Shown here one piece after another: positions 4,038 to 23,954 of a stretch of DNA of 64,000 bases. The stretch is from contig NZ_JACCFW010000001.1 of the NCBI RefSeq assembly GCF_013410455.1, positions 2,682,929-2,746,928 on the forward strand, written 5' to 3'. Under the pieces are notes generated by a model that made no database searches, was not told where the DNA came from, and saw only the letters and a list, made by a program, of their open reading frames with translations. Made by a program: the position numbers and the translations under genes. Origin of the DNA: Allobranchiibius huperziae (GTDB lineage Bacteria > Actinomycetota > Actinomycetes > Actinomycetales > Dermatophilaceae). The stretch's first letter is position 1, and every line of letters starts with the position of its first letter.

Positions 4038-4475
4038 ATGAGAGGAGTCGGCGTGAGGGGTTGCGTTGGCTATGCGCCGGGGGTGTACGACCTCTTCCAT
4101 GTCGGCCACCTCAACATCCTGCGGCGAGCCCGCGAGCGGTGTGACTACTTGATCGCGGGAGTCGTCTCCGACGAGATGGCCGAGCGGGCCAAGGGGCGGA
4201 CCCCGGTCGTCCCGACATCAGAACGGCTGGAGATCATCCAGCACATCGTCTTCGTCGACGAGGCGATCATCGAGACCGTCCCGCGCAAGTTGGACACCTG
4301 GCGCGAGCATCCGTTCGACGTCATCTTCAAGGGGGACGACTGGCGCGGTACCGCGAAGGGCGACCGGCTCGAGCAGGATTTCGCCGCGGTCGGAGTGACC
4401 GTGTGCTACCTGCCGTACACGATCCACACATCGAGCACGTTGCTGCGGGAGGCGTTGCACCATGCCGCGTCGTGA
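4038..4475 (+). CDS. Cytidylyltransferase-like nucleotidyltransferase
   Basis: Predicted protein of 145 residues, the usual size of the glycerol-3-phosphate / ethanolamine-phosphate cytidylyltransferase family. GVYDLFHVGHLNIL near residue 14 contains the HxGH nucleotide-binding signature, and YTIHTSSTLLR near the C-terminus occupies the place of the family's RTxGISTT motif. The family activates a phospho-alcohol with CTP to give a CDP-alcohol. ATG 4038 has GGGAG 4 nt upstream; GTG 4053 with GAGGAG 5 nt upstream is an equally good start. It is the first gene of the plus-strand EPS operon, and the next gene encodes a CDP-alcohol phosphotransferase, so the two probably form a CDP-alcohol supply-and-use pair. 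The alcohol (glycerol, inositol, ethanolamine or other) cannot be read from the sequence. Confidence 0.85.
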   Translation: MRGVGVRGCVGYAPGVYDLFHVGHLNILRRARERCDYLIAGVVSDEMAERAKGRTPVVPTSERLEIIQHIVFVDEAIIETVPRKLDTWREHPFDVIFKGDDWRGTAKGDRLEQDFAAVGVTVCYLPYTIHTSSTLLREALHHAAS

Positions 4476-4518
4476 GGCAGCGGCGAGCACCTCGGTCACA
4501 CCGGGCGGGGCGAGCTGA

Positions 4519-5286
4519 GTGTCCGTCGCACAGCGCAGCCCGGTGACCAGCCGCACACCCGACGAAACCCTGCGCCAGACGATCCAGCGGCTCTCCGGTG
4601 CGCAGAAGACCTCCAAGGGTGCGCCGGCCTACTCCCGGTTCGTCAATCGCAAGGCCGGCCGCCTGATCGCCGCGGTCGCCTACCACTGCCACCTCACGCC
4701 CAATGCCGTCACGCTGATCAGCGCGGGGTGGTCACTGGCGGGTATCGCGTTGCTCGTGTTCGGTTCACCGACAACGGCTCTCGGCATCGTCGTGACCCTG
4801 TGCCTGGCCATCGGGTACGCGTTCGACTCCGCCGACGGCCAGCTGGCCCGGCTCCGCGGCGGCGGCTCGCCCGCCGGCGAATGGCTGGACCACGTGGTCG
4901 ACAGCGGGAAGGTCTGCGCGCTGCACCTCGCGGTACTCGTGTCCTTCTATCGCGCCGGCGACTCTGCCCGCGAGCTGCTCGTCCCGTTGATGTGGACCTG
5001 GGTCGCCAGCGTGCTGTTCTTCGTCATCATCCTCAACGACCAGCTGCATCGAGCACGGGGCACCGCGCCGGCGAAGGATGCTGCGGCGCCCGTCCTGCGC
5101 AGTCTGCTCGTCGCGCCCACCGACTACGGCGTTCTGCTGCTGACCTTCGTGCTCATCGGGCAGCACCAGCTCTTCCTCTGGGTCTACGGACTCCTGCTGG
5201 TGGCGAACATCGCGTATCTGGCAGCCGGCCTGGCGAAGTGGTTCCGCGCGTTGTCGCACCCCGAGACCACGGGTGCGCCCGCATGA
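4519..5286 (+). CDS. CDP-alcohol phosphatidyltransferase family membrane enzyme
   Basis: Predicted protein of 255 residues with a GTG start. The diagnostic motif DxxDGxxARx8GxxxDxxxD is complete (DSADGQLARL, then GEWLDHVVD) at about residues 106-131, so the metal- and CDP-binding site should work. Several hydrophobic segments (around residues 65-100, 140-180 and 195-240) make it an integral membrane protein. The family moves a phospho-alcohol from a CDP-alcohol, or a phosphatidyl group onto an alcohol, with release of CMP. Beside a cytidylyltransferase in an EPS operon, its acceptor may be a lipid or the growing polysaccharide; this is inferred from context. It overlaps the next gene by ATGA (5283-5286). 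Confidence 0.88.
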   Translation: MSVAQRSPVTSRTPDETLRQTIQRLSGAQKTSKGAPAYSRFVNRKAGRLIAAVAYHCHLTPNAVTLISAGWSLAGIALLVFGSPTTALGIVVTLCLAIGYAFDSADGQLARLRGGGSPAGEWLDHVVDSGKVCALHLAVLVSFYRAGDSARELLVPLMWTWVASVLFFVIILNDQLHRARGTAPAKDAAAPVLRSLLVAPTDYGVLLLTFVLIGQHQLFLWVYGLLLVANIAYLAAGLAKWFRALSHPETTGAPA

Positions 5287-6476
5287 CCCCGACCCTGCTC
5301 ATCGCGAACCCTTCGGCGGATGTCTACGGCTCGGACCTGCAGATGCTCCAGACCGTATCGGCGATGCGCGGCCGAGGCTGGCGAGTGGTCGTGGCCATCC
5401 CCGGCAACGGACCGTTGGTGCCCCTCCTCACCGCACGCGGCGCGGAGGTCGAATTCCTTTCCTTCCCCGTGGTGCGCCGATCGAACATGTCCGCCGCCGG
5501 GATACTTGCTCTGGGCGTCGACGCCGCGCGGTCGCTGCCGGGCATGCGGCGCCTCTTGAAGTCCGTCGCTCCCGACGCCGTCTACGTGAACACAGTCACC
5601 ATCCCCTGGTGGATCACCGCGGCGCGATCCGGCCGAATCGGTGTGGTCTGCCACGTGCACGAAGCGGAGGCGGAGGATCGCCGAGCGATCAGAGTCGCAC
5701 TGAACACACCATTGCTCGCTGCCAATTCGCTCATCGCCATCAGTCCGTCGGTGGTGGATGCGACCGTTCGCGACGTGCCGGCGCTGAAGCGACGGACACA
5801 CCTGATCTACAACGGTGTCCCCCAGCCATCCGCCGAGCCCACCGCCGCCCCGGAACCACGGCCGTTCCGGCTGGTCGTCATCGGGCGCCTGTCGCCGCGC
5901 AAGGCGCCTCACATCGCACTGGAGGCTGTGGCTCAATTGCGTCGCGCCGGACGCGACGTCCGCCTGGAAGTCTGTGGGACGCCGTTCGCCGGGTACGAGT
6001 GGTACGAGGAGGAGCTCCGCGCCCGCGCCGAGGACGACGACCTCGCAGGCTCGGTGACCTTCTCCGGATACGTCTCACCCGTCTGGCCGGCACTCGCCCG
6101 ATCGCACGCCGTCCTCGCGCCGTCCCTGCGCGAACCCTTCGGAAACGCCGTGGTCGAAGCGCAATTCGCGTGCCGGCCGGTCATCGCCGCCGCCGCGATG
6201 GGACACCTCGAAACTGTTCAGCACGAGGCGACGGGCCTGTTGGTCCCCCCAGGGCAGGCCGATGCGATGGCTGCCTCAGCGGCTCGCCTGATGGATGACC
6301 CGGGCTTGGCGACGTCCCTGGCCCAGAGGGCGAGGGTCCGCGCTCTCGACCGGTTCACGGTCGACCGCTACGGCACCGAGGTTGCCGACCTCATCGGGGG
6401 CCTGTGCCGTGATCGCCGCCAAGCGCACAGGCACGTTGCGTCCACCCGACCACGAGAGGTCGTGCGTGGCGCATGA
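5283..6476 (+). CDS. Glycosyltransferase, GT4-like (GT-B fold)
   Basis: Predicted protein of 397 residues with no signal peptide. The N-terminal acceptor domain has a glycine/serine region (ADVYGSDLQML). The C-terminal GT1/GT4 domain starts at about residue 195 (RLVVIGRLSPRKAPHIALEA) and carries the EPFGNAVVE (Ex7E) motif that contacts the nucleotide-sugar. It probably adds one sugar to the EPS repeat unit on the cytoplasmic side. The ATG overlaps the preceding stop codon (ATGA), and its own stop overlaps the next start in the same way, so translation along the operon is coupled. Donor and acceptor sugars are not predictable. Confidence 0.9.
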   Translation: MTPTLLIANPSADVYGSDLQMLQTVSAMRGRGWRVVVAIPGNGPLVPLLTARGAEVEFLSFPVVRRSNMSAAGILALGVDAARSLPGMRRLLKSVAPDAVYVNTVTIPWWITAARSGRIGVVCHVHEAEAEDRRAIRVALNTPLLAANSLIAISPSVVDATVRDVPALKRRTHLIYNGVPQPSAEPTAAPEPRPFRLVVIGRLSPRKAPHIALEAVAQLRRAGRDVRLEVCGTPFAGYEWYEEELRARAEDDDLAGSVTFSGYVSPVWPALARSHAVLAPSLREPFGNAVVEAQFACRPVIAAAAMGHLETVQHEATGLLVPPGQADAMAASAARLMDDPGLATSLAQRARVRALDRFTVDRYGTEVADLIGGLCRDRRQAHRHVASTRPREVVRGA

Positions 6477-7648
6477 GTCACACGACAGCAGCCGGAGCGG
6501 TATCGCCGCCGACGGTCCGAATTCTGGGGACGCATGGAATCCCCGCCGCGTACGGCGGATTCGAGACCGCGGCCGAGAACGTAGCGCTCTACCTCCACGC
6601 CCACGGGTGGCGGGTGGTCGTCTACTGCCAGGAGCAGGGTGTCGGCCCGATGCGGGAGGACGTCTGGCGCGGCATCGAACGCGTCATCGTGCCGGTCGAC
6701 CGCGACGGATGGCTCGGCACCTCGACCTTCGACTGGATCACCGTGAGGCACGCGGCACGCCATCGTGACGTGTGTCTGACGTTCGGGTACAACACCGCGA
6801 TCTTCAACGTGCTGCAACGGATTCGTGGCATCCCCAACGTCATCAACATGGACGGCATCGAGTGGTCCCGCGCCCGGTGGGGGAAGTTGCGCCAGGCGAT
6901 CCTCTACACGAACGAGCGGATCGCGTGCGCCGTGGGCGATCACCTCATCGCCGACCACCCCTGCATCAACGATTACCTCGAGCGCAAGGCACCGGCACGC
7001 AAGATCTCGACGATCACCTACGGCGCCCACCGCGTCAGCGAGGCATCGACCGAGCCCGTGCTCGACATGGGGCTGACGCCCGGCAACTACCTCACGTTGA
7101 TCTGCCGCCCGATCCCGGAGAACTCGATCCTCGAGCTGGTGCAGGCGTTCTCGGCGAAGTCCCGCGGACATCAGTTGGCGATCTTCGGCAACTACACACC
7201 CGACACCGATCCCTACCACCGAGCCGTGATGGACGCGGCGAGCGACGAGGTGCGCTTCGTCGGTGCGATCTACGAGCCGGCGCAGGTCGCGGCGCTTCGC
7301 CTGCACAGCGCGATCTACCTGCACGGCCACACGGTCGGTGGCACGAACCCGTCGTTGGTCGAGGCCATGGCGGTGGGCAATCCCGTTGTGGCGCACGACA
7401 ATCCGTACAACCGTTGGGTAGCAGGCGACGGTGCGCTCTACTTCGACGACGTCGAGTCGGCGAGCAGCTGCATCACCGAGCTGCTCGACTCAGCCGACCT
7501 GCGCGAGTCGCTGTCGGCGGCGAGCCGAGCGCGGCACGCCCGTGAATTCACCTGGGAGCACGTCGCCGGCCAGTACGAGGCCGTCCTGCGGCAGTTCGCG
7601 ACGTCCCATGACAGATCCGCCAGGACGAGAGCAGGAGTAGGAACATGA
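6473..7648 (+). CDS. Glycosyltransferase with N-terminal DUF1972 domain
   Basis: Predicted protein of 391 residues. The N-terminus, ILGTHGIPAAYGGFETAAEN, is the signature of the DUF1972 domain of rhamnosyltransferase-type GT4 enzymes of bacterial EPS and antigen clusters. NVINMDGIEWSRARWG near residue 123 and GHTVGGTNPSLVEAMAVGNP near 283 fit the same family; the latter is the nucleotide-sugar-binding segment. Rhamnose transfer is common for the family but not proven here. It is linked to its neighbours by ATGA overlaps at 6473-6476 and 7645-7648. Confidence 0.9.
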   Translation: MSHTTAAGAVSPPTVRILGTHGIPAAYGGFETAAENVALYLHAHGWRVVVYCQEQGVGPMREDVWRGIERVIVPVDRDGWLGTSTFDWITVRHAARHRDVCLTFGYNTAIFNVLQRIRGIPNVINMDGIEWSRARWGKLRQAILYTNERIACAVGDHLIADHPCINDYLERKAPARKISTITYGAHRVSEASTEPVLDMGLTPGNYLTLICRPIPENSILELVQAFSAKSRGHQLAIFGNYTPDTDPYHRAVMDAASDEVRFVGAIYEPAQVAALRLHSAIYLHGHTVGGTNPSLVEAMAVGNPVVAHDNPYNRWVAGDGALYFDDVESASSCITELLDSADLRESLSAASRARHAREFTWEHVAGQYEAVLRQFATSHDRSARTRAGVGT

Positions 7649-8748
7649 AGATCGGTGTCGTCGGACTCGGCAAGATGGGGTTGTCCCACCTGTCGATGAT
7701 CAATGCGCATCCGGATGTCGAGGTCGCAGGCATCGTCGACTCGGCCGGTTACCTCCTGGACGTCCTCGGGAAGTACACCGGCATGCAGAGATTCAGCGAC
7801 TACGAGACCATGCTGGACACGGTCGAGTTGGACGCGGTCCTCATCGCCACCCCGACCCGCATGCACGAGCCGATGGTCCGCGCCGCGCTCGAACGAGACC
7901 TGCACGTGTTCTGCGAAAAGCCGCTCTGCCTGACATCGGCCGAATCCATCGCCCTCGGCGAACTCGCCGACGAACGTGGGCTGGTGACCCAGGTCGGCTA
8001 CCACAACAAGTTCGTCGGAGCGTTCCAGGAAGTACGAAATCTCCTCGACGCCAAAGCGATCGGACAGGTCACCCACGTACTGGCGGAGGCGTACGGGCCC
8101 GTCGTCCTCAGGGCGAAGGGGTCGACCTGGCGCAGCCGTAAGTCCGAGGGCGGCGGCTGCCTCTACGACTACGCGGCGCACCCGATCGATCTGCTGACGT
8201 GGTATCTCGGCGCACCGGTCGGCGTCGGCGGCTCCCAGCTGCGGCGCGTCTTCTCCGACCATACGGAGGACGAGGTGCTCGCGACCATGTACTTCGAGGA
8301 GGGAGTGAGCAGCCAGATCAGCGTCAACTGGTCGGACGAGTCCTGTCGCAAGATGACCACGAAGGTGACGATCTGGGGTACGGCCGGCCGCATCCAGGCC
8401 GACCGTCAGGAATGCCAGGTCTACCTGCGCGACACCGTCGAGCCCCCGCCCGGCTATCAACACGGCTGGAACACCAAGTACACCACCGAGTTGACCGACC
8501 CGACGTGGTTCTATCTGCGCGGGGAGGAGTACAGCGCGCAACTGGACTACTTCGTGCAGCGCGTCCGGGCAGGCAAGGTCGAAGGCGTCAACACGTTCCA
8601 GAGCGCCGCGGTCACCGACCGTGCCCTCGAGCTGATCTCACAGGACGCCGCCGTCGGGACCTCCCTGCGCGAGTTGCGCCCTGCGCAACCGACCCCAGCA
8701 ACGACCACCGATCGCATGAAGCGACGCATCTTCCGGAAGCAGCCATGA
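7645..8748 (+). CDS. Gfo/Idh/MocA family NAD(P)-dependent oxidoreductase
   Basis: Predicted protein of 367 residues. The N-terminal Rossmann fold starts KIGVVGLGKMGLSHL; HVFCEKPLCLTSAE near residue 90 contains the conserved EKP motif whose lysine is catalytic in the family. GGGCLYDYAAHPIDLLTWYLG near residue 172 carries the conserved DxxxH of the active site. Such enzymes oxidise or reduce hydroxyls on sugars, sugar nucleotides or inositols. In this EPS operon it probably modifies a sugar precursor or, with the two CDP-alcohol genes, a polyol. The short C-terminal tail (TTDRMKRRIFRKQP) is basic. Overlaps both neighbours by 4 nt. Confidence 0.9.
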   Translation: MKIGVVGLGKMGLSHLSMINAHPDVEVAGIVDSAGYLLDVLGKYTGMQRFSDYETMLDTVELDAVLIATPTRMHEPMVRAALERDLHVFCEKPLCLTSAESIALGELADERGLVTQVGYHNKFVGAFQEVRNLLDAKAIGQVTHVLAEAYGPVVLRAKGSTWRSRKSEGGGCLYDYAAHPIDLLTWYLGAPVGVGGSQLRRVFSDHTEDEVLATMYFEEGVSSQISVNWSDESCRKMTTKVTIWGTAGRIQADRQECQVYLRDTVEPPPGYQHGWNTKYTTELTDPTWFYLRGEEYSAQLDYFVQRVRAGKVEGVNTFQSAAVTDRALELISQDAAVGTSLRELRPAQPTPATTTDRMKRRIFRKQP

Positions 8749-9647
8749 CGACACAGATCGCCCCTTCGCCCGCCCACCGGACCGACCGGATGCCGCGACT
8801 GCTCTTCGGGGACAACCAGTTCTTCGGTGTGAACCACATGTCGGAGGAGAAGGCGCGCCAGCAGGCGATGCGCTTCCAGAACCTCGATTCCATCGTTCGG
8901 GTCCTCGACGCGGCATGTGACGAAGGCATCGACACCTTCATGTGCACCACGCACGACCGGATCGGCGAGATCTGCGCTCACGTGCGCGCAAACCCCGAGC
9001 GCTACGCGGACTTCACCTTCTACCCGTGCATGCCCTACGCGCACAAGTACGCCGATGCCGTCACCGAGGACGGCATGCTCGGGGCGATCCGCCGGTTCCT
9101 GCCCGAGGAGGGTCTGTTCAACGCCGCGTTCCGGGGTGGCCGCGCACTCGCGACCAAGGATGTCGAGGGCATCATCACGCTGCTCGTCGACGCCGAGATG
9201 GCAGCCTTCCGAGGTGTTCGCACCCCGGTGATCTGGCTGCAGAACGTGGTCGTCGATCTCCTCCTCGGACTCGACTTCAAGGACGCCTTCTCGATCTTCG
9301 ATGAGCACGTACGCACCCGGTACGGCGCCGAACCCGGCTACATCACGATGAACCTGCCGCGCGCGCTGGACATGTTCGACGACATCGGCCTGGTCAACCC
9401 CATCGTCTGCTCGAACATCAACAAGCTCGGATTCCGCATGTCGGGCGGGATCGAGGAGTACCAGGCCGCACTGCGCGACCGGCAGTTCCGAGCGGTCGCG
9501 ATGTCGGTCTTCGCGTCCGGCGCGATCCCGCCGCGTGAGGCCCTGGAGTGGGTGTGCAGCCAGCCGCAGATCGAGTCCATCGTCTTCGGAGCATCGAGTC
9601 GGGCGAACATCGCCCAGACCGCCGAACTCGTTGCGGAGTTCTGCTGA
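8745..9647 (+). CDS. Conserved EPS-cluster protein, barrel-like, function unknown
   Basis: Predicted protein of 300 residues; ATG 8745 overlaps the previous stop (ATGA). The frame is open far upstream, but that part is a shadow of the oxidoreductase gene. I do not recognise a named family. Striking segments are LLFGDNQFFGVNHMSEEKA near residue 21 and, at the C-terminus, AVAMSVFASGAIPPREALEW followed by SIVFGASSRANIAQT. This last part recalls the closing strands of aldo/keto-reductase barrels, where a VGASS-type loop binds the cofactor. A TIM-barrel oxidoreductase or aldolase acting after the Gfo/Idh/MocA enzyme is the best guess from context, but no catalytic Asp/Tyr/Lys/His tetrad was identified. 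No signal peptide or membrane segment. Confidence 0.8.
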   Translation: MTTQIAPSPAHRTDRMPRLLFGDNQFFGVNHMSEEKARQQAMRFQNLDSIVRVLDAACDEGIDTFMCTTHDRIGEICAHVRANPERYADFTFYPCMPYAHKYADAVTEDGMLGAIRRFLPEEGLFNAAFRGGRALATKDVEGIITLLVDAEMAAFRGVRTPVIWLQNVVVDLLLGLDFKDAFSIFDEHVRTRYGAEPGYITMNLPRALDMFDDIGLVNPIVCSNINKLGFRMSGGIEEYQAALRDRQFRAVAMSVFASGAIPPREALEWVCSQPQIESIVFGASSRANIAQTAELVAEFC

Positions 9648-9649
9648 CC

Positions 9650-11038
9650 ATGGCTGCGGGCACTGCATTCGCTTCGTCCCGGGCGCGGGGCCGCGGGCTG
9701 CTGCATCCTGAGCCGCTGAGGAGGCCGGCGTTCGACGTGAAGGCGGCGACCGTCCTGCGCGCCACACGGACTGCCTACCGCGAGCATCTGGCGCATGAGC
9801 GGATGGATCCGGAGGCGCTGCAAACGCTGCAGGATCAGCGGACGATCGCGCAGGCTTCGTTCGCCATGCAGCATTCGCGCTTCTACCGCGACCTCTACCG
9901 GTCCGCGGGATTCTCCATCGAGGACCTGCGAGACCCTGCAGCCTTCTGCCAACTGCCCACCATCGGCAAGGAGGACGTCCGCGAGCGCTTCGCCGACTTC
10001 CGGACGGATGAGGCCATCAGCGCGAACACGGCGCTGAACGTCACCGGCGGCAGCACGGGAGAACCCCTGCGGATTCTGCGTGATGTGCGGGTGCCGGCGC
10101 GGGCCCTGGAGTGGCAGTTGTTCCACTGGTGGGGCTTGGACCCGTCTGTGGATATTGCGATCGTGCAACGCCACACGAAATCCCAGAAGGATCGACTCCG
10201 CCACGCGGCGTCCTGGTGGCCGTCCGTACGGTTCCAGCTCGACGCGTTCCGGATGAACGAGGAGACGATCGGACAGTTCCTCGCGCAATGGCAGTCGGTC
10301 GAGCCTTCCTTGTTGATCGGCTACGCCGGTGCGATCAGCGAAGTAGCCGCAGAGCTCCTCGCGCGGGACATCCGTGTCCATCAGCCGCGAGCAGTCGCCA
10401 CGACCGCGGCCCCGCTGACCGACCCCCAGCGAGCCACCATCTCGGAGGCGTTCGACGCACCCGTCTACGACCACTACCGGTCATCGGAGGTGCCCTGGAT
10501 CGCGGGTGAGTGTGCCGCCCATGAGGGACTGCACGTCTTCGCCGACGTCCGCAAACTCGAGCTTCTCGACGAGACCGGCGTCCCCGTGGCCGCGGGCACC
10601 GTGGGTGACACCGTCGTCACCGACCTCAACAACAGGGTGTTCCCGCTCATCCGTTATCGACTCGGTGACCGAACCGCTGCGATCGACGCCCCGTGCGCGT
10701 GCGGTGTCACGCTCCCTCGGATCCAGCCCATCAGCGGGCGTCAGACCGACGCGTTGCGTCTGCCCGGTGGGCAGGTCGTGGCGGGTGAGGGCCTCGCGCA
10801 GATCTTCAGCCGACACCCTGGCGCGGTCCGACAGTTCCAGATACATCAGATCTCCGACCGCTCCGTGGTGCTGCGATGCGTATCGGCGCACCGGCCCGAC
10901 TCCGCGCGCGACATCCAGGTGGTCGCGTCGAACCTTCGAGAGCTCCTCGATCACCAGGTGAAGGTCGCCGTCGTGCTCGTCGACCGGATACCTCACGCGG
11001 GTGGGAAAGTCAGATGCGTGACCAGCGACGCGCGGTAG
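9650..11038 (+). CDS. CapK/PaaK-like adenylate-forming enzyme
   Basis: Predicted protein of 462 residues; ATG 9650 lies 2 nt after the previous stop. It resembles phenylacetate-CoA ligase and the CapK proteins of capsule clusters. LNVTGGSTGEPLRILRD near residue 128 is the ATP/AMP-binding loop, YDHYRSSEVPWIAGEC near residue 273 the adenine-binding Tyr/Glu region, and FPLIRYRLGD near residue 332 the conserved hinge segment. ACACGVTLPRI suggests a retained Cys pair. CapK-type enzymes in polysaccharide loci are thought to activate an acyl group for polymer modification, but their substrates are mostly unknown. It could acylate the EPS or charge a carrier; no carrier protein gene is seen. It overlaps the next glycosyltransferase by 25 nt. 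Confidence 0.87.
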   Translation: MAAGTAFASSRARGRGLLHPEPLRRPAFDVKAATVLRATRTAYREHLAHERMDPEALQTLQDQRTIAQASFAMQHSRFYRDLYRSAGFSIEDLRDPAAFCQLPTIGKEDVRERFADFRTDEAISANTALNVTGGSTGEPLRILRDVRVPARALEWQLFHWWGLDPSVDIAIVQRHTKSQKDRLRHAASWWPSVRFQLDAFRMNEETIGQFLAQWQSVEPSLLIGYAGAISEVAAELLARDIRVHQPRAVATTAAPLTDPQRATISEAFDAPVYDHYRSSEVPWIAGECAAHEGLHVFADVRKLELLDETGVPVAAGTVGDTVVTDLNNRVFPLIRYRLGDRTAAIDAPCACGVTLPRIQPISGRQTDALRLPGGQVVAGEGLAQIFSRHPGAVRQFQIHQISDRSVVLRCVSAHRPDSARDIQVVASNLRELLDHQVKVAVVLVDRIPHAGGKVRCVTSDAR

Positions 11039-12099
11039 CGGAGCTGGTGCGGGACTCGACCGCGACACCGTTGACGGTGCTGCAATCCGGGCCCCGACCG
11101 CTCCCGACCACCAATCCCTACAACATTCTGCTCGCCCAGAGTGTGGAAGCACGTGACGCCATCGACTACCGGTACTTCTCATGGAGAGAAGCGCTGCTGG
11201 GACGGCATGAGGTCTTCCACGCCCACTGGCCGGAGGCGATGCTGCAGGGCCGCACCCCGCTGAGATCGGTTGCTCGACAGGCCCTGTTCGCACTGCTCCT
11301 GGTCAAGTGGAAGGCGCGTCGAACGGCCGTCGTACGCACGGTGCACAACATCGGTCTGCCCCAGGGGATCTCGCGTCGAGAAACCCTGCTGCTGCACGCC
11401 TTCGAGCATCAGACCGTGCTCGGCATCTGCCTCAACGAGCACACCCCGGTACCCCACGCACGTGCTCGACATGTCATCCCCCATGGCCACTACCGCCCGT
11501 GGTACGACCGTTATCCCCACAGCACGGCACGGACCGGACACTTCGCCTACTTCGGAATGATCCGGCGGTACAAGGGGGTGGACGGTCTTGTGCGGGCATT
11601 CCAGGAGACGACCGATCCCGCCCTGAGTCTGACCGTCGCCGGCAAACCGTCGACGCCGGCGCTCGGCGCGGACCTGGAACGACTGGTCAGCACAGATCCT
11701 CGGATTAGCTTCGCCCCCGGCTTCCTGGAGAACCCCGACCTCGTCACCGCGATCACAGAAGCGGAGATGGTGGTCCTGCCGCATCCGGAGATGCACAACT
11801 CCGGAAGCGCTCTGGCCGCACTGTCACTGGACCGTCCCGTGCTGATCCAGGACAACGCGGTCAACCGCGATCTGCAGTCGGAGGTCGGCGCCGGCTGGGT
11901 CCACCTCTACGCCGGCAACCTCACGGGTACGGACCTGGTGGACGCACTCGAGGCGCTGCGCGCGAATCCGCCGAAGGGTCGCCCACGGCTGGAGACCCGT
12001 GAGTGGGACCTCTCCGCGGCCCTTCACGAGGACGCCTACCGTCACGCCGCATCCATCGTCAACGCGGGTCCTCGTTCCATGCGCCCGGGCCTGCGATGA
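11014..12099 (+). CDS. Glycosyltransferase, GT-B type
   Basis: Predicted protein of 361 residues. The start at 11014 is chosen because it follows GTGGGAAAG and gives a complete N-terminal domain; it lies 25 nt inside the end of the CapK-like gene. Features typical of GT4-like enzymes in EPS clusters are VFHAHWPEAML near residue 68, AVVRTVHNIGLPQG near 107, HVIPHGHYRPWY near 152 and FAYFGMIRRYKGVDGLVRAF near 178, where the second domain begins. EMHNSGSALAALSLDRPVL near 258 takes the place of the usual Ex7E region. Probably a cytoplasmic sugar transferase of EPS repeat-unit assembly. Ends in an ATGA overlap with the next gene. Confidence 0.84.
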   Translation: MRDQRRAVAELVRDSTATPLTVLQSGPRPLPTTNPYNILLAQSVEARDAIDYRYFSWREALLGRHEVFHAHWPEAMLQGRTPLRSVARQALFALLLVKWKARRTAVVRTVHNIGLPQGISRRETLLLHAFEHQTVLGICLNEHTPVPHARARHVIPHGHYRPWYDRYPHSTARTGHFAYFGMIRRYKGVDGLVRAFQETTDPALSLTVAGKPSTPALGADLERLVSTDPRISFAPGFLENPDLVTAITEAEMVVLPHPEMHNSGSALAALSLDRPVLIQDNAVNRDLQSEVGAGWVHLYAGNLTGTDLVDALEALRANPPKGRPRLETREWDLSAALHEDAYRHAASIVNAGPRSMRPGLR

Positions 12100-13103
12100 G
12101 CACGACCGAACAGCACACCGATCTTCGCACCGGCCGAGGACCAGGTCCGGTGCATCGTCCTCTCACTCTCGTGGTCGCGATACTCACCTTCCGCCGCTGT
12201 GAGGAGTTGCGCAGACATCTCCCCGAGGTCGCCAGACATGTCGAGTCTCTGACCGCCGCCTCGCCAGGACCGATCTCGGCATCCGTCCTCGTCGTCGACA
12301 ACGATCCGTCGGGGTCGGCCGGTCCCGTCGTCGAGGAGATGGGCCCGGCCGTGCGCTATGTGTGCGAGCCCGATCCGGGGATCGCAGCTGCCCGCAACCG
12401 CGCGGTCGACGAAGCGGCCGGAGCGGATCTCCTGGTGTTCATCGACGACGACGAACGACCGCTTCCAGGGTGGTTGCCCGCGTTGGTCGACACATGGGCG
12501 GTTCATCGCCCGGTGGCTGTTCCAGGACGGGTCCTCCCCCGGTATGCGTCTCCTCCTGAGACGTGGTTGATCGCGGGCGGGTTCTTCGACCGCCCGGTTC
12601 GGGCCTCGGGCACGCGTATGCCGACCGCCGCCGCGGGAAACCTCCTGATCGACCTACGGCAGCTGCGCTCCTCAGGTCTTCGCTTCGAGGAGCCCTTCGG
12701 CAGAACGGGCGGTGAGGACAGCCTGCTGGGCAGGCGCCTCGTTCAGCAGGGACTGCAGATCATCTGGTGTGCCGAGTCGGCGGTCGAGGACGTCATCCCA
12801 GCTGAACGTCTCACGAGGTCGTGGGTACTTCGCCGAGCGTGGTCACAGGGCAATCTGCAGAGCTTGATCGACGTGCGTCTCGCGGCGGGTCGGTGGCGAC
12901 GGGCGTACGTGACCGCCTACCGGCTCGCGGCAGGGTGCGCCCTCATCGGCAGGGGGATGCCGCGAGTAGTCATCGGCTACGCGTGTCGGAGGAAGCGTCT
13001 TCAGGCGCAAGGGGCGGGCGCGTCGTTCCGAGGGATGGGCATGATCGCCGGAGCCTGCGGACGTCGGTTCGAGCAGTACGCACGATCTGACGCACCCACC
13101 TGA
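12096..13103 (+). CDS. Glycosyltransferase family 2 (GT-A fold)
   Basis: Predicted protein of 335 residues. VAILTFRRCEELRRHL near residue 30 opens the nucleotide-binding fold. VVDNDPSGSAG, then DPGIAAARNRAVDEA and LLVFIDDDERPLPGWL near 112, give the family's donor site and metal-binding Asp cluster. GGEDSLLGRRLVQQG near 205 holds the ED catalytic-base motif of GT2 enzymes. A hydrophobic C-terminal stretch (residues 275-305) may associate with the membrane. It is the last gene of the plus EPS operon and converges on the Wzy-like gene with a 31-nt gap. Confidence 0.9.
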   Translation: MSTTEQHTDLRTGRGPGPVHRPLTLVVAILTFRRCEELRRHLPEVARHVESLTAASPGPISASVLVVDNDPSGSAGPVVEEMGPAVRYVCEPDPGIAAARNRAVDEAAGADLLVFIDDDERPLPGWLPALVDTWAVHRPVAVPGRVLPRYASPPETWLIAGGFFDRPVRASGTRMPTAAAGNLLIDLRQLRSSGLRFEEPFGRTGGEDSLLGRRLVQQGLQIIWCAESAVEDVIPAERLTRSWVLRRAWSQGNLQSLIDVRLAAGRWRRAYVTAYRLAAGCALIGRGMPRVVIGYACRRKRLQAQGAGASFRGMGMIAGACGRRFEQYARSDAPT

Positions 13104-13134: not shown

Positions 13135-14466
13135 TCATGGTTGTTCGCGACGTGCGCGCGCCACCACCGGAGCGCTGCCCAGGAGCAGCGTCAGCGTCGG
13201 CGCTGCTGTCCACAGGGGCGTGCCCAGCAGATCCCAGACAGTGACGCACGAGAGGAACAGCACCAGCGCATTGACCCGGCTCCCGGAGATGGCCGCCGTC
13301 AGGAATCGGAGAGCGACGACCGCGATGATTCCTGCGAGGACCAAACCGAGGATCCCGTAAGGCGCCCACAGATCAGCCGTGATGCTGTGCAGTTCGAACT
13401 GACCCGAATAGAACATGTACTTGTCGAGGCCGCCGAGCCGCGGGTCCGCACCGATGGCTTGCATGGCGTTCTCGGCGATCGAGATGTCGTGCATGTTGGG
13501 CTGGACGCCCATTCCGTAGCCGAGCGGATGCTCCATCAACAGGCTCTTGAACCCCACCAGCTCGGGACGGCCGCCCAGGAGCAGCGATCCTGAACGGTTG
13601 AGTTGCAGGACGGTGCGCTGCTCGGTCTCGGCTCCCAGATATCCCCGGAGGATCAGAGTCTGGCCGAGAGTCAGGATCGCTGCCAGAACGACGACGAGCA
13701 GACCGGCCTTCGCGAATGACGCGCGAAGGTCGTCCCCCCACGTGTATCGACCCGCGCACAACAGGAGGGCGCCGGTCACGATGTACGTCGCGAAGAGTGA
13801 CCTGGAGTCGGTGCCCGCAGCGACCGCCATCAAACCACCGAGCGCTGCGAGTTGGGGCCACTTCATGCGCGTGGCCACGGCGATGCTGAGCACCACGATC
13901 GTCACGGGGGTCGCGTAGCCGAACTTCCACGATCCCGTCGAGTAGACGAAGGTCATCCTCGGCACGCTCATCAGACTGCCCAGACCGAAGCACAGCCCCA
14001 CCAACCACAACGGCAGGATCGTCCGGGCCCAGAGGACGGTGCACACCCCGAGGAGAATCCCCCCGAGAAGGGCAGCCGCAGCGATCTGTGCGCGGCCCAC
14101 CACGACATGGTCGACCGCGGTCGATCGGCTGAGGAACAACCCAGCGACCATGGCGGCCATTCCGCACGCGAGCGCCCATTTGGCTCCCCAGTACCGGCCG
14201 AGCGTGGGGAGCGACAGCGGAAGCAGGAGGAATGCGAGCACGTCCCCACTGGTGACCCCGTAGTGCACCGTCAGCCGCAGTCCCAGCAGGAAGAGGCAGA
14301 GCACCGCAAGGACCTGCTCGACGAGGACGGTCCTGTTGACGATCTCGGTGTCACGTTCGCGACCGGCGCTCGAGCCCGCCCCGCCCTGTGTCGACCCCGC
14401 CGGGGCGTCCGTCTCCCCTCGCGGCTCGTCCACGCGGCCCCGGGGGAATGCTGTGCTGTGCGACAC
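13135..14466 (-). CDS. O-antigen polymerase (Wzy)-like membrane protein
   Basis: Predicted protein of 443 residues from a GTG start. About 45 hydrophilic N-terminal residues are followed by roughly ten to twelve hydrophobic helices. A long extracytoplasmic loop (about residues 275-350) contains RPELVGFKSLLMEHPLGYGMGVQPN; ExxxxxPxxGxG in this place is the loosely conserved pattern of Wzy/WaaL polymerase-ligase proteins. It would join lipid-linked repeat units on the outer face of the membrane. It is the last gene of the minus-strand EPS operon, 12 nt after the phosphatase gene. Wzy proteins diverge strongly, so the call rests on topology, loop and context. Confidence 0.8.
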   Translation of the reverse strand: MSHSTAFPRGRVDEPRGETDAPAGSTQGGAGSSAGRERDTEIVNRTVLVEQVLAVLCLFLLGLRLTVHYGVTSGDVLAFLLLPLSLPTLGRYWGAKWALACGMAAMVAGLFLSRSTAVDHVVVGRAQIAAAALLGGILLGVCTVLWARTILPLWLVGLCFGLGSLMSVPRMTFVYSTGSWKFGYATPVTIVVLSIAVATRMKWPQLAALGGLMAVAAGTDSRSLFATYIVTGALLLCAGRYTWGDDLRASFAKAGLLVVVLAAILTLGQTLILRGYLGAETEQRTVLQLNRSGSLLLGGRPELVGFKSLLMEHPLGYGMGVQPNMHDISIAENAMQAIGADPRLGGLDKYMFYSGQFELHSITADLWAPYGILGLVLAGIIAVVALRFLTAAISGSRVNALVLFLSCVTVWDLLGTPLWTAAPTLTLLLGSAPVVARARREQP

Positions 14467-14478
14467 GTCGGACCGACC

Positions 14479-15153
14479 TCAGACGCCGTTGTAGATCGGC
14501 GAACACTCCACGCAGCTGACGTCCGTGCTGCTGACGAGGAGAGGCTCTCGGTCGTGGCGCTCGGTCACCTGCTCGAAGGCTCGGGCGATCGGCTCCACAC
14601 TCCGCGCGATCCGCTCGAGCACCTTCCTGCACTCACGGCGCGACATGCGCGCTGGGTCCTGGATGTCGTCGTCCCTCCCGGGAGCCCGGACCGCGCCTCG
14701 TGCGCGGGAGGCGTCCTCACGCAACTGCCGAAGAGCGTCGGACGGTGTTGCTCCGCAGCTGTTCGAGCGGCACGAGCTGCGGTACGTCAGCGCGTCATCC
14801 AAGAGACGTGCGAACTCCGGCACCGTGAAGACCTTTCGCACGACCGAGGGACACATGGAGACGACTTCGGAGCGGTGCACGCGCGTCATCACGAGAATGA
14901 GGTCGGCCTCCAGCAACATCGCGGCGGTCAGCCTGGTCGAGCGGAAGGTTGCTGCGCCGTCTGACAGATCCGCGGGAAGCTTCTGTTGCATGGCCGCGAC
15001 CATCTCGGAACCCTTCAGCGCACGGGTACCTGCACTGACGACCGAGATCGCGAGCGCATCCTGCAACGACGACCTCAGCAGGAGCGCTGTGGCGGGAGAC
15101 CTGCAGATGTTCGCGGTGCACACCACCAGGACCTTGAAGCAGTCGCTCGCCAC
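14479..15153 (-). CDS. Low-molecular-weight protein tyrosine phosphatase
   Basis: Predicted protein of 224 residues with a GTG start, 1 nt after the stop of the BY-kinase gene. VCTANICRSPA at residues 10-20 is the CX5R(S) active-site loop, with the catalytic Cys at 11. DDIQDPARMS near residue 165 supplies the general-acid Asp. At 224 residues it is longer than the usual 150: there is a Ser/Cys-rich insertion (RSSCRSNSCG near 125) and about 50 extra C-terminal residues. In EPS systems this phosphatase removes phosphate from the tyrosine kinase and so controls chain length and export. Sitting directly behind the kinase gene fits that role. Confidence 0.9.
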   Translation of the reverse strand: MASDCFKVLVVCTANICRSPATALLLRSSLQDALAISVVSAGTRALKGSEMVAAMQQKLPADLSDGAATFRSTRLTAAMLLEADLILVMTRVHRSEVVSMCPSVVRKVFTVPEFARLLDDALTYRSSCRSNSCGATPSDALRQLREDASRARGAVRAPGRDDDIQDPARMSRRECRKVLERIARSVEPIARAFEQVTERHDREPLLVSSTDVSCVECSPIYNGV

Positions 15154-15154
15154 G

Positions 15155-16648
15155 TCATCTCACCCCCCTGCGGACACTTGCCTGCACGGTCGCGCCGGTA
15201 CGGACGCTCGGCTTCCCGACGAGCTCGACAGGAAGCTCGGGCGAGTCCAGTTCAGGAGCATCCGCCTGAGGTACCGCTGTGGTGTGCCGGCCCGATTCCG
15301 CGCCGCCGTACGTGCGGTCACGACCTGACCGGAAGCGCTTCCTCGCCAGGACCACCCCGAGCAGTTTGGCGCCCCCCTGCTCCAGCGCACGGACACTCTC
15401 GGCCAGTCGCGACTGCGAGACGGATCCCGCACCCGCCACGAGCACCGCCCCGGAGGTGAGGTGGGCGATCAGAGCAGCGTCGGTCACGGGACCGAGCGGC
15501 GGACAGTCCAGGATCACGATGTCGTAGTCGTCGGCCAGACATTGCACGAGCACCGCCATCTGCGACGAGCTCAACAGCTGCCCGGGGTTCGGGGGCACGG
15601 CGCCGGAGGGCAGCACGAACAGCTTGTTGTCGGCGCCCGACGGCTGTACGACGTCCTCGAAGGCGGACAGCCCGGACAGGATGGACGAGAGGCCGGCACT
15701 CCCTTCGATGCCGAGTCGTTGCGCCACCGCCGGTTTGCGCAGGTCGGCGTCGATCAGGAGGACTCGGTCGCCGGCCTCGGCGCACGCGAAAGCGAGGTTG
15801 AGCGCCGTGGTCGTCTTCCCCTCCGATTCCTCGCTCGAGGTGATGACCACGGAACTGCGCCCGCTCCCGACCTGCATGAACCTCAGGTTCGTCCTCAACT
15901 TGCGGTACGACTCCGCACGCCCACTCAACGGAACGTCGCGCACCGGCAGCTGAGCTCCTCCGGACCACCGAGACCGCCGTGGCATCGTCACCTCGCCGAG
16001 CACCGGCTTGTCGACGACCTCGCTGAGATCGGCGGCGCACCGCACCTTGTCGTCGAGCTTGTCCCGCAGCACCCCGATCGCGAAGGCGAGGATCAGGCCA
16101 CCGAGGAAGCCGGCCGCGATGTTCCGTTTCGTCGCCGGCACGGCCGGTTTCGTGGGGACCCGCGCCGCACCGACCGCGTAGACGTCCACTGTCGGGCGCC
16201 CGCGAGAGTCCTTGGGCGACAGGCTCTTCGCGGTCACACCCAGGACGTCGGTGACCTTGTTCGCGATCGCTGCCGCGTGCTGTGGAGACCGGTCGGACGC
16301 ACTGATGTGGATGATCACCGTGCCTGCGGCGACACTCGTGGACACTTCACGAGCGAGCTGTGCTTCGGTCGCGGGGAACGGGAGCATCGTCGCAACCTCC
16401 CCCAGTACCCGGGGGCTGGTCGCGAGCATCGCGTACGACTCCATCTGGGCCTGCGTGTAGGACGACCCCTGCGACAGATCGACCGCGCTGTTCCCGTACG
16501 ACAGCGAGAAGTACACGCTGGCGCTGGAACGGTACATAGGTGTCGTCGTCACCGACCACAGCAGCGCGGCGATCACACACGTGGCGAGCAGGCCCAGCAT
16601 GATGCGCCAACGCCGTCGAACGATCTGGGCATAGGTGTGAATCGTCAT
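15155..16648 (-). CDS. Polysaccharide co-polymerase / BY-type tyrosine kinase (Wzz-CpsD fusion)
   Basis: Predicted protein of 497 residues. A Wzz-type region with membrane helices at about residues 16-36 and 178-195 encloses an extracytoplasmic domain. The cytoplasmic kinase domain follows: Walker A TSSEESEGKTTT near 275, Walker A' VLLIDADLRKP near 303 and Walker B DIVILDCPPLG near 383. It should control EPS chain length through cycles of autophosphorylation with the phosphatase encoded next. Odd point: the C-terminal tail lacks the tyrosine cluster typical of BY-kinases; only one Tyr (RTYGG) is present in the last 60 residues. Signalling may therefore use few sites or a different residue. 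It lies 22 nt after the flippase gene. Confidence 0.9.
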   Translation of the reverse strand: MTIHTYAQIVRRRWRIMLGLLATCVIAALLWSVTTTPMYRSSASVYFSLSYGNSAVDLSQGSSYTQAQMESYAMLATSPRVLGEVATMLPFPATEAQLAREVSTSVAAGTVIIHISASDRSPQHAAAIANKVTDVLGVTAKSLSPKDSRGRPTVDVYAVGAARVPTKPAVPATKRNIAAGFLGGLILAFAIGVLRDKLDDKVRCAADLSEVVDKPVLGEVTMPRRSRWSGGAQLPVRDVPLSGRAESYRKLRTNLRFMQVGSGRSSVVITSSEESEGKTTTALNLAFACAEAGDRVLLIDADLRKPAVAQRLGIEGSAGLSSILSGLSAFEDVVQPSGADNKLFVLPSGAVPPNPGQLLSSSQMAVLVQCLADDYDIVILDCPPLGPVTDAALIAHLTSGAVLVAGAGSVSQSRLAESVRALEQGGAKLLGVVLARKRFRSGRDRTYGGAESGRHTTAVPQADAPELDSPELPVELVGKPSVRTGATVQASVRRGVR

Positions 16649-16670: not shown

Positions 16671-18212
16671 TCATTGCGCTAACTTCCCCTTCCGGCGAAC
16701 AACCGACTGAACGGTGTGAACGATGTCCTCGACGTCGCGGCGCACGGCCGGCGCGAGCGCCGCCGCGCCCGCGATGGCGGCCACGCACGCGCAGGCGCTC
16801 AACAAGATCTGTGTGAGGGGCGCCAACGGCACCACCGAGCAGGTGACGAAGCCGGCTGCGCCGCACAGGACAGCCATGGCGGTCACGCGCGTTGCATCAC
16901 GGACCATCGCGCGGACCGGACACTGCGTCTTGCGTGCGGCGAACCAGAGCGAGAACGGCCACTTGATGGCGGCGGAGACGGCGTACCCGGTCGCGACGCC
17001 CACCACGCCCCACCTGCTGCCAATCACCAGGCACGCGATGCGGATTCCCGTTTCGACGTACGAGAGCTTGACGAGCTGGCCGGTGATCTCCCGCGACAGG
17101 TAGATCCAGAAGCAGGCGAAGGAGAACGTCTGGACAGCGCCCGCGACGGCGAGCATCCGGAAGATCGGGACGACCCCGCTCCATCGGTCTCCGAGGACCA
17201 GGACGATGACCGGCCTCGCCGCTCCGGCCAGGAACGCGATGGGAAGGACGAGCAGGTAGCCGAGGGCCAGCTGGCCGCGAAGCACATATCGGTCGTGCCG
17301 AACCGAATCGTCCCGCAGCCGCGACAGCACCGGGAGCGCAACGCTGGTGGTCGGTGAACGCACCTGGCCGAGAGGTGCCATCAGGAGCTGGAATCCCCGG
17401 TTGTACAGACCGAGCGGTCTCGCCCCGAACCGCGTCCCGATGATGAAGGAGTCGGCGTTGCTGCCTACGTACTGGATGAGCTGGGCGCTGACGTAATGCC
17501 ACCCGAAACGCAGCAGATGCCTCATCGGTTCGTGACGCGACGGTTTGCCGGGGATCCACCGCGAGACGCCGACGACGATCATGAGTCCGATCACCGCCTG
17601 CCCCAACTGTTGGGCGACCAGGGCCCAGTAGCCGGCCCCCCACACCGCGAGCAGCACAGCGAGGGCGGCCGCCAGCATCACCGAGACGACATCGGTCGCG
17701 GCCAGGACGCCGAATCGCATGTTCCGATTCAGGTCAGCGCGGTACTGGGTCGCCAGACCGTCGAACAGGAAGACGAACGACAGCACCATGGCGATCCGCC
17801 GCAGTTCGGGCTGCCCGTAGATCAGTGCGATCAACGGCGCCCCGGCGATGATGACAACGGTGAGTGACGCGCCCAGCCCGGTATTGATCCAGAACAGATT
17901 GCTGCGTTGCCCGGCCGACAGGGTCCGCGCCTGGACCGCCGCGTAGGACAGACCGAAATCGCGAAAGATCTCGGCCACCCCCACGATGGCGACCACCATG
18001 GCGAGCAGACCGTAGTCGCGGGGACTCAGGATCCGGGCCAGCGCGACGACCCCGGTCATCTGGATCAGGATGCGCACGACCTGGCCGCCCACAGTGACGA
18101 TGGCGCCTCGTGCCGCGCGTTCGCCCAGCCCCTGGGAGGGGATCCTCGTCTCGTAACCACCTCCCTCCTCCTCGTCCACCTCAGGAGGAGGGAGCTCACT
18201 GACCCCGGTCAC
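16671..18212 (-). CDS. Wzx-type lipopolysaccharide/EPS flippase (MVF superfamily)
   Basis: Predicted protein of 513 residues from a GTG at 18212. The frame is open to 18302, but that would overlap the preceding gene and add no conserved sequence. After a charged N-terminus (DEEEGGGYETR) come about 12 to 14 transmembrane helices. Signature stretches are GGQVVRILIQMTGVVALARILSPRDYG near the first helix and NADSFIIGTRFGARPLGLYNRGFQL in the middle, both typical of the WzxC/RfbX group. It should flip undecaprenyl-linked repeat units across the membrane for the Wzy-like protein. The start codon choice is uncertain: only a weak AGG lies upstream. Confidence 0.9.
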   Translation of the reverse strand: MTGVSELPPPEVDEEEGGGYETRIPSQGLGERAARGAIVTVGGQVVRILIQMTGVVALARILSPRDYGLLAMVVAIVGVAEIFRDFGLSYAAVQARTLSAGQRSNLFWINTGLGASLTVVIIAGAPLIALIYGQPELRRIAMVLSFVFLFDGLATQYRADLNRNMRFGVLAATDVVSVMLAAALAVLLAVWGAGYWALVAQQLGQAVIGLMIVVGVSRWIPGKPSRHEPMRHLLRFGWHYVSAQLIQYVGSNADSFIIGTRFGARPLGLYNRGFQLLMAPLGQVRSPTTSVALPVLSRLRDDSVRHDRYVLRGQLALGYLLVLPIAFLAGAARPVIVLVLGDRWSGVVPIFRMLAVAGAVQTFSFACFWIYLSREITGQLVKLSYVETGIRIACLVIGSRWGVVGVATGYAVSAAIKWPFSLWFAARKTQCPVRAMVRDATRVTAMAVLCGAAGFVTCSVVPLAPLTQILLSACACVAAIAGAAALAPAVRRDVEDIVHTVQSVVRRKGKLAQ

Positions 18213-18258
18213 TGGCGACTGCCTGCGATCCCGTCTCGGTGGTGCATCCCACGTCGGT

Positions 18259-23124: not shown

Positions 23125-23216
23125 CGTCGCTCCTGAACACTGTGATGCGGGGTGAGGGGTCGTCACCGGGTGGGCCGAGTGGGTGGGTGTGACGGCCGGA
23201 CGGGGGGTCTGCTCAG

Positions 23217-23954
23217 TCACGTCACTTTTCCTCTGAACGTCGCAAGCTGGTGGAGCCCGTCGAGATCGACGGTCATGGTGACCTGGCTCAGATCCGCTGC
23301 CGGCACCGAGAACCCGTACACGGCGTTCCCGGACTTGCCCGGTTGAACGGTGCTGGCGAAATCGACCGAGTTCTGGTCGTAGACGAGGTGGGCGAGGCGG
23401 GCCGGTGAGCCGTAACTGACGGTCACGACCACGGCGTCGAACGACAACGGCTTCTTGGTGCCGTTGGTCAACGTCACGTAGAAATCGGTGACCGGCCGGC
23501 CGGGGAACACGCCCGGCCCCTGACCGGTGACCTTGCTCTGGGTCATCCGGGTGATCCTGAGCCGCAGCCCGTCCGCGTACTCGACGGGCTGGGTGAAGGG
23601 CCTGGCTCCACCGATCGCGGAGATACTCGGCCGCACCTTCCGGCCGCTGCGCTCGACCGGTACGACCGCCGATGATGCGAGCGGGTCGCTCGGGATCGCG
23701 GTGCTCGCGCCCTTGGGCAGCTTCTGCTGGGTCGAGGCCTGCGACGTGTCATCCTGCGGGCCGGCTGTCGGGGTCGACGTCAGCCCCGCGACGGCGTTCG
23801 GCACACCGGACGCGGTCGACCCCGGCCGGTCGGCCGCGCCGTCGTGCGCGGAGCTCGCGCATCCCGTCACGGCGACACCGAGTGCCACACAGGCGACGGC
23901 GATCAAGGATCCTCGACGTCCTCGTCCGGAGTGACTCAGCGTTTCTGATGCCAT
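23217..23954 (-). CDS. Putative lipoprotein of the EPS operon
   Basis: Predicted protein of 245 residues. The N-terminus has basic residues (GRGRRGS), a hydrophobic core and the lipobox VTGC at about residues 29-32, so it should be lipid-anchored on the outer face of the membrane. A Ser/Thr/Pro-rich linker to about residue 110 leads to a beta-sandwich-like domain (DFYVTLTNGTKKPLSFDAVVVTVSYG) resembling the immunoglobulin-like DUF4352 group. The start overlaps the preceding stop as TGATG, and its own stop is 92 nt before the chosen start of the giant secreted protein. It may help export or anchoring of the EPS or of that protein; no known partner domain was recognised. Confidence 0.8.
   Translation of the reverse strand: MASETLSHSGRGRRGSLIAVACVALGVAVTGCASSAHDGAADRPGSTASGVPNAVAGLTSTPTAGPQDDTSQASTQQKLPKGASTAIPSDPLASSAVVPVERSGRKVRPSISAIGGARPFTQPVEYADGLRLRITRMTQSKVTGQGPGVFPGRPVTDFYVTLTNGTKKPLSFDAVVVTVSYGSPARLAHLVYDQNSVDFASTVQPGKSGNAVYGFSVPAADLSQVTMTVDLDGLHQLATFRGKVT

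Follow-up and report, generated by a model that had tools for sequence, protein, structure and literature searches.

A cytidylyltransferase and CDP-alcohol phosphotransferase pair with a eukaryote-like catalytic signature in an actinobacterial exopolysaccharide locus

To our knowledge, little is known about how actinobacterial exopolysaccharides (EPS) are anchored or decorated. Here, we describe a Wzx/Wzy-type EPS locus of Allobranchiibius huperziae that lies in a 64,000-nucleotide stretch of contig NZ_JACCFW010000001.1 (positions 2,682,929 to 2,746,928; the whole stretch is referred to below as the window) and that carries genes for a cytidylyltransferase, cyt, and a cytidine diphosphate (CDP)-alcohol phosphotransferase, cdpT. 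These two genes form a pair found in about a quarter of the genomes surveyed from the host's order, and the phosphotransferase bears a conserved catalytic signature of the kind described for eukaryotic choline and ethanolamine phosphotransferases. We read the locus as having three parts, namely the CDP pair, which would place a phospho-alcohol on a constant acceptor, a sugar cassette made up of the glycosyltransferase GT2, a Gfo/Idh/MocA oxidoreductase (Gfo) and a protein of predicted aldo-keto reductase (AKR) fold (the 'barrel'), and an optional acyl part centred on a CapK-like ligase; we put the probability of this reading at about 0.55.

A widespread CDP pair in exopolysaccharide loci

The distribution of the pair was surveyed in 198 genomes of the host's order, with cut-offs of >100 bits for cdpT and >130 bits for cyt, both placed at visible score gaps, and with co-occurrence counted without regard to relatedness. 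A strong cdpT was found in 52 genomes and a strong cyt likewise in 52; of the 53 genomes with at least one of the two, 51 have both, across 12 families. They share a contig at a distance of at most 30 kb in 50 of these 51 genomes and lie within 1.5 kb in only 21, so the pair is held in one locus whose gene order has been reshuffled.

The surroundings of the pair were read in detail in 20 cdpT loci, which were chosen by hand out of the 52 genomes with cdpT, lack a barrel gene and had their stretches placed by hand; cdpT and cyt were each detected in 18. These loci also hold relatives of other proteins of the window's locus, namely the LamG/PKD protein (19 loci), the glycosyltransferases GT1 (14) and GT4 (13), the Wzz/kinase chain-length protein (12), Wzx (7) and the Wzy candidate (5), with a relative of either Wzx or Wzz/kinase in 14. 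Since the LamG/PKD matches may reflect common domains, the order survey used residues 1-880 of this protein at 1e-30, a cut-off fixed beforehand for it and for the CapK-like ligase. Matches were found in 51 of the 198 genomes, 43 of which also hold cdpT, at a distance of at most 30 kb in 40 of the 43. Several genomes have at least two separate copies of the LamG/PKD protein. A named look-alike is an Actinomyces oris plasmid with genes for a cytidyltransferase, a sugar transferase, a flippase, a CDP-alcohol phosphatidyltransferase, a DUF1972 protein and a LamG protein.

The CDP pair is, then, a common part of EPS loci in related bacteria, whereas the remaining unusual enzymes are extras that a locus may or may not have. 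The original prediction, made from the window's sequence, had supposed that such a gene set might be common in poorly studied actinobacteria, which the survey bears out for the pair; its companion statement, that Wzx/Wzy systems usually lack a CDP pair, fails in this order, both by the survey and by the Wzx or Wzz/kinase relatives in the hand-picked loci.

Signature and predicted fold of the phosphotransferase

The product of cdpT matches PF01066 (7.9e-8; 33.3 bits against a cut-off of 22) with the generic motif DxxDGxxAR...GxxxDxxxD complete, and in the window this reads DxxDGxxAR...GEWLDHVVD. The extended form GExxDHxxD is present in all 29 aligned sequences (28 of 29 fetched relatives and the window's own), and the Glu-His pair is also found in L127, the relative left out for having Ser in place of Ala in the generic motif. 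The extension is absent from the host genome's three other PF01066 proteins and from 29 other actinobacterial PF01066 loci, four of which have the Glu and none the His. According to PMC10182977, GExxDHxxD is the extended motif proposed for CHPT1/CEPT1, its Glu and His are highly conserved in the eukaryotic enzymes and absent from most bacterial ones, and replacement of either residue by alanine nearly abolishes activity; for human CEPT1, either His155 or His197 has been put forward as the base (PMC10156783).

An AlphaFold2 model of the 255-residue protein (predicted local distance difference test, pLDDT, 89.7) has about six long helices. Its nearest folds, among the matches listed, are AF2299 (Z 19.1, root-mean-square deviation (rmsd) 2.8, 214 residues aligned) and then IPCT-DIPPS (Z 17.9). 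The ten-transmembrane architecture of the CHPT1/CEPT1 group is not seen in this model, and cdpT may therefore work like CEPT1 but is not classed there.

Its partner cyt has an HxGH motif and matches PF01467 (2.5e-15). Among structures in the PDB, a profile of 30 cyt relatives matches ethanolamine-phosphate cytidylyltransferase (3elb, 2.1e-27), TagD (1coz, 2.6e-17) and the cytidylyltransferase domain of Fom1 (5x3d, 1.9e-13; PDB title phosphoenolpyruvate phosphomutase), and because of these matches the substrate is likely to be a small phospho-alcohol, with glycerol-3-phosphate or ethanolamine phosphate as a guess. A phosphonate donor was rejected as the genome gave no phosphoenolpyruvate mutase match, which is weak grounds since the model used gave no over-cut-off match in 14 controls either.

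A strictly paired oxidoreductase and predicted AKR-fold protein

Separately from the CDP pair, the locus encodes a second and stricter partnership. In one genome scan, 235 of 267 pattern-matched stretches encode barrel relatives, and the best 80 of these 235 were joined with six others to give 86 barrel loci, several of them short contigs, two (L012 and L059) from one genome and a few more near-copies. Gfo lies directly upstream of the barrel in all 86.

Gfo itself matches PF01408 (93.5 bits against 24) and falls below the cut-offs of all NCBIfam models listed; its relatives have EKP in 82 of 82, a GxGKMG start in 78 and a DxxxH pattern in 79. The barrel gave no Pfam family at 0.01, no NCBIfam family and no PDB sequence match, and the 12 families listed at E up to 1 for 42 barrel members do not include PF00248, the aldo-keto reductase family. 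These 42 members come from several phyla, with a mean column identity of 72%, and the family has invariant GDNQFFG and MCTTH segments. As modelled (pLDDT 77), the barrel is a divergent AKR-fold protein, aligning, among the matches listed, with the AKR YghZ (Z 17.5, rmsd 3.0, 227 aligned). The invariant MCTTH appears to stand where the host's AKRs have the canonical DTAxxY, in a comparison in which only 40 C-terminal columns align (E 0.005). Three plasmid records annotate the product as 'hypothetical'.

The flanking genes point to sugar chemistry. With L012, L037, L060, L063, L022 and L027 left out, 70 of the 80 remaining loci have an open reading frame (ORF) before Gfo, which matches Cps2T in 28 of the 70, DUF354, which we take to be glycosyltransferase-like, in 17 and WecG in 6. 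Of 55 plus-strand ORFs after the barrel, 32 were counted (non-actinobacterial by title, minus L023 and L082), of which ten match WecB and five the RmlB/GalE-type models, which overlap. As these counts are tallies from overlapping models (Cps2T with DUF1972, RmlB with GalE) and not a per-member table, they are not additive. A WecB/TagA/CpsF transferase directly follows the barrel in two alphaproteobacterial plasmids. Because glycosyltransferase-type genes stand before Gfo and nucleotide-sugar-type genes after the barrel, we read GT2, Gfo and the AKR-fold protein as a sugar cassette with GT2 as its first gene, containing a strictly paired, unannotated Gfo-AKR module common to several phyla.

In the plasmids L223 and L222, both alphaproteobacterial, Gfo, barrel and WecB/TagA/CpsF-type genes lie near exosortase genes (XrtE, XrtD), and a Bacteroides plasmid carries a 39% barrel relative that likewise adjoins Gfo. 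A tree built from the barrel proteins of 75 loci and of the window, 76 in all, has five Pseudomonadota and five Actinomycetota label changes, of which the starred branches force two and three, respectively; horizontal transfer of the barrel gene is likely on these sequences, though bins may include foreign contigs.

A rare CapK-like ligase

The CapK-like protein is, judged by NCBIfam and PDB similarity, an adenylate-forming enzyme; its NCBIfam matches are to DVU_1553/PaaK-type ligases (from 2.5e-35), none of which reaches its curated cut-off, and it has no Pfam family. Relatives are rare, being found in 4 of the 198 order genomes and 7 of the 86 barrel loci. The families listed for the 17 scanned proteins of the locus include no acyltransferase, and acyl decoration of the polymer is possible but unsupported.

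Layout of the locus

The region from about 4038 to 26858 of the window is a Wzx/Wzy exopolysaccharide locus in a host genome of 3.7 Mb, and the nine genes at 4038-13103 form its plus-strand arm. Its genes are as follows.

4038..4475, plus: cyt, HxGH cytidylyltransferase (start ATG 4038 or GTG 4053; PF01467)
4519..5286, plus: cdpT, CDP-alcohol phosphotransferase with GExxDHxxD extension (PF01066, motif, AlphaFold2 model)
5283..6476, plus: GT1, family 4-type glycosyltransferase (PF00534, 9.1e-30)
6473..7648, plus: GT2, DUF1972/Cps2T-type glycosyltransferase (PF09314, 2.5e-14; NF046071, 2.1e-43, below cut-off)
7645..8748, plus: Gfo/Idh/MocA oxidoreductase (PF01408, 2e-26)
8745..9647, plus: 'barrel', predicted divergent AKR-fold protein, strict partner of Gfo (predicted model; no family)
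9650..11038, plus: CapK/PaaK-like adenylate-forming ligase (NF045666, 2.5e-35, below cut-off; PDB 4r1l, 2.3e-22)
11014..12099, plus: GT3, glycosyltransferase group 1 (PF13692, 3.8e-6)
12096..13103, plus: GT4, family 2 glycosyltransferase (PF00535, 1.5e-10)
13135..14466, minus: probable Wzy polymerase, hydrophobic (placement fits; no Pfam family; predicted function)
14479..15153, minus: low-molecular-weight tyrosine phosphatase (PF01451, 8.6e-14)
15155..16648, minus: Wzz/tyrosine-kinase-type chain-length protein (PF02706, PF13614)
16671..18302, minus: Wzx flippase (PF13440, 2e-74)
18259..23220, minus: LamG/PKD protein, 1653 residues, hydrophobic signal-like N-terminus (often found with the CDP pair)
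23217..23954, minus: small lipoprotein-like protein (no Pfam family; adjoins the initiating transferase; relatives in 7 of 86 barrel loci)
23954..25714, minus: initiating sugar-phosphate transferase (PF02397, 4.3e-67)
25935..26858, minus: NAD-dependent epimerase/dehydratase, with which the locus probably ends (PF01370, 5e-60)

The gene after the epimerase, for an isocitrate/isopropylmalate dehydrogenase, marks the end of the locus. All nine genes of the plus-strand arm (4038/4053-13103) are present and had been read correctly in the original prediction, as a cytidylyltransferase, a CDP-alcohol motif protein, Gfo, the barrel, a CapK-like enzyme and four glycosyltransferases; its description of them as mostly joined by ATGA overlaps holds at five of the eight junctions (5283, 6473, 7645, 8745 and 12096), while two of the others have gaps, of 43 and 2 bases, and one an overlap of 25 bases. 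Its frames were also preferred to two overlapping-frame ORFs from the mechanical ORF list, at 5273 and 6295, which gave no family match and were rejected. An EPS locus with a CDP-alcohol branch, as it had proposed, agrees with the pair genes and the matched parts of a Wzx/Wzy pathway (flippase PF13440, initiating transferase PF02397, chain-length protein PF02706). An LCP anchoring enzyme inside the locus was rejected, the genome's four LCP matches all lying outside the window.

The closest named relative by locus proteins is Allobranchiibius sp. CTAmp26 (84-95% identity over the six proteins from cyt to the barrel), whose compared stretch of 20.9 kb gave no match to CapK. Just ahead of the locus, at 1036-3656, are two minus-strand genes with no Pfam family above cut-off, which are kept at the matching place in Allobranchiibius (79-89%).

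A three-part model and its alternatives

The three-part model is built on the observed gene presence, motifs, predicted folds and co-occurrence, from which all substrates, the acceptor and the order of steps are inferred. Briefly, cyt would use cytidine triphosphate and a small alcohol phosphate to make a CDP-alcohol, and the membrane enzyme cdpT would move the phospho-alcohol from CDP to a neutral hydroxyl, with the Glu-His pair serving as base, as proposed for the eukaryotic choline phosphotransferases. The acceptor would probably be constant, whether the lipid carrier, a lipid anchor, the first sugar or the LamG/PKD surface protein; we favour a constant acceptor, with low confidence, since the pair is retained in loci that differ in their GT2-Gfo-AKR and CapK genes. 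Gfo would oxidise a sugar or nucleotide sugar, its AKR-fold partner would reduce or epimerise the keto product and the adjacent glycosyltransferase would add the resulting sugar, while the CapK-like ligase may adenylate a carboxylate for an optional acyl group. We regard as rather unlikely the bolder proposal of a widespread, undescribed actinobacterial system in which a Kennedy-type pair builds a constant phospho-alcohol link from a variable Wzx/Wzy polymer to a membrane anchor or the LamG/PKD protein.

A number of points weigh against the model. Its substrates are predicted only, and the cyt profile matches several substrate classes, cyt itself falling far short of the TagD equivalog cut-off (TIGR01518, 60.4 against 165.4 bits). 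Constancy of the pair is by itself no proof of a constant acceptor, as relatives of GT1 and GT4 are also frequent (14/20 and 13/20), and the link to the LamG/PKD protein is incomplete, with no match at 1e-30 in 9 of the 52 cdpT genomes and no strong cdpT in 8 of the 51 LamG/PKD genomes, in co-occurrence tests that ignore the relatedness of the 198 genomes. The motif controls were the highest-scoring PF01066 members, mostly canonical lipid enzymes, four of the 29 having Glu without His; the cdpT fold is closer to DIPPS (Z 18-19) and phosphatidylinositol-phosphate (PIP) synthases (about 16) than to cholinephosphotransferases (11-14); and the catalytic motif usual for AKRs, with its Asp-Tyr-Lys-His tetrad, could not be made out in the barrel sequence.

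The original prediction had the oxidoreductase branch supply a phospho-alcohol to the polymer or its lipid carrier; in such a route a special alcohol phosphate would come from Gfo together with the barrel, and cyt and cdpT would then add it to the polymer. The genes do overlap in one arm, and five of the seven order genomes with a barrel have a strong cdpT, but the barrel accompanies the pair in just 5 of 51 genomes and is absent from 46. Conversely, the 86 barrel loci hold cdpT in only 20, all from the host's order or actinobacterial by title except for one Acidobacteria metagenome-assembled genome, and cyt in 12, leaving 66 of the 86, a set with some short contigs and two loci of one genome, with no CDP transferase; a nucleotide-sugar enzyme, moreover, often follows the barrel in the 32 non-actinobacterial loci. 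Because the CDP pair and Gfo/barrel mostly occur apart, the oxidoreductase is an unlikely supplier and this route is very improbable. A CDP pair found mostly apart from the other genes, which the original prediction had itself named as refuting, is thus what is seen for the link between pair and oxidoreductase. A single five-enzyme unit is likewise rejected, since only 2 of the 198 genomes, one of them that of the window, combine the pair with the barrel and the CapK-like ligase; what survives of it is two separate partnerships, cyt with cdpT and Gfo with the barrel.

Two further alternatives concern the chemistry of the pair. One, which we consider unlikely, makes cdpT a PIP-synthase-like enzyme acting on CDP-diacylglycerol and an alcohol phosphate, while cyt, in the manner of HldE-type enzymes, would provide a glycosyltransferase with an unrelated nucleotide sugar. 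Matches of cdpT in NCBIfam to archaetidylinositol-phosphate and PIP synthases, neither of which reaches its cut-off, PIP synthase folds at Z about 16 and an HldE-domain match of cyt (2.4e-15, below cut-off) are consistent with it; the co-occurrence of cyt and cdpT in 51 of 53 genomes, the lack of the Glu-His pair in the host's three other PF01066 copies and the position of AF2299 and IPCT-DIPPS as nearest solved folds among the matches listed argue the other way. The other is a teichoic-acid-like backbone, in which CDP-glycerol would feed a poly(glycosyl-glycerol-phosphate) polymer, as might be expected from TagD being the best full-length single-domain solved match of the cyt profile (66 bits). 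We judge it improbable, as no TagF-type CDP-glycerol glycerophosphotransferase family was listed among the 17 locus proteins scanned and the locus instead encodes Wzx together with an initiating sugar transferase.

Comparison with known systems

No description of this locus type was found in the open-licence literature with the few search terms used. The eukaryotic Kennedy branch of animal phospholipid synthesis resembles the locus pair in joining an ethanolamine- or choline-phosphate cytidylyltransferase to CHPT1/CEPT1, whose motif is given as D1xxD2G1xxAR...G2ExxD3HxxD4 in PMC10182977. Those phosphotransferases have ten transmembrane segments, in contrast to the 255 residues and, by the model, about six long helices of cdpT, which sits in an EPS locus. 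Nearest in fold are the archaeal AF2299 and IPCT-DIPPS (Z 17.9-19.1), the latter pairing, by its title, a cytidylyltransferase with a CDP-alcohol phosphotransferase in a CDP-inositol branch. Proteins of the IPCT-DIPPS type have a fused nucleoside triphosphate (NTP)-transferase domain, whereas the locus has separate genes and an HxGH-type cytidylyltransferase, and the aligned segment of AF2299, GAWLDGVLD, is without the Glu-His pair. A bacterial cytidylyl-type enzyme is also paired with a CDP-alcohol phosphotransferase in the Bacteroidetes cluster of NTP transferase, CDP-alcohol phosphatidyltransferase and HAD genes, for which inositol lipids and a polar CDP donor are proposed in PMC9246714; there, the setting is lipid synthesis beside an inositol-phosphate synthase, unlike the EPS setting of the locus pair. 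Sugar dehydrogenases of the Gfo/Idh/MocA group, IolG and UDP-GlcNAc 3-dehydrogenase among them, share PF01408 and EKP with the locus Gfo, which differs in falling below all listed NCBIfam cut-offs and in its strict pairing with an AKR-fold partner.

What sets the locus apart is thus a CDP pair that is widespread in EPS loci and bears a eukaryote-like catalytic signature and, separately, a strictly paired Gfo-AKR module. With a bacterial CDP-alcohol phosphotransferase that is conserved, has a single domain and carries the Glu-His signature of the eukaryotic enzymes, there is a testable enzyme pair in 51 of 198 order genomes, and cdpT offers a simple model for how choline and ethanolamine phosphotransferases work.

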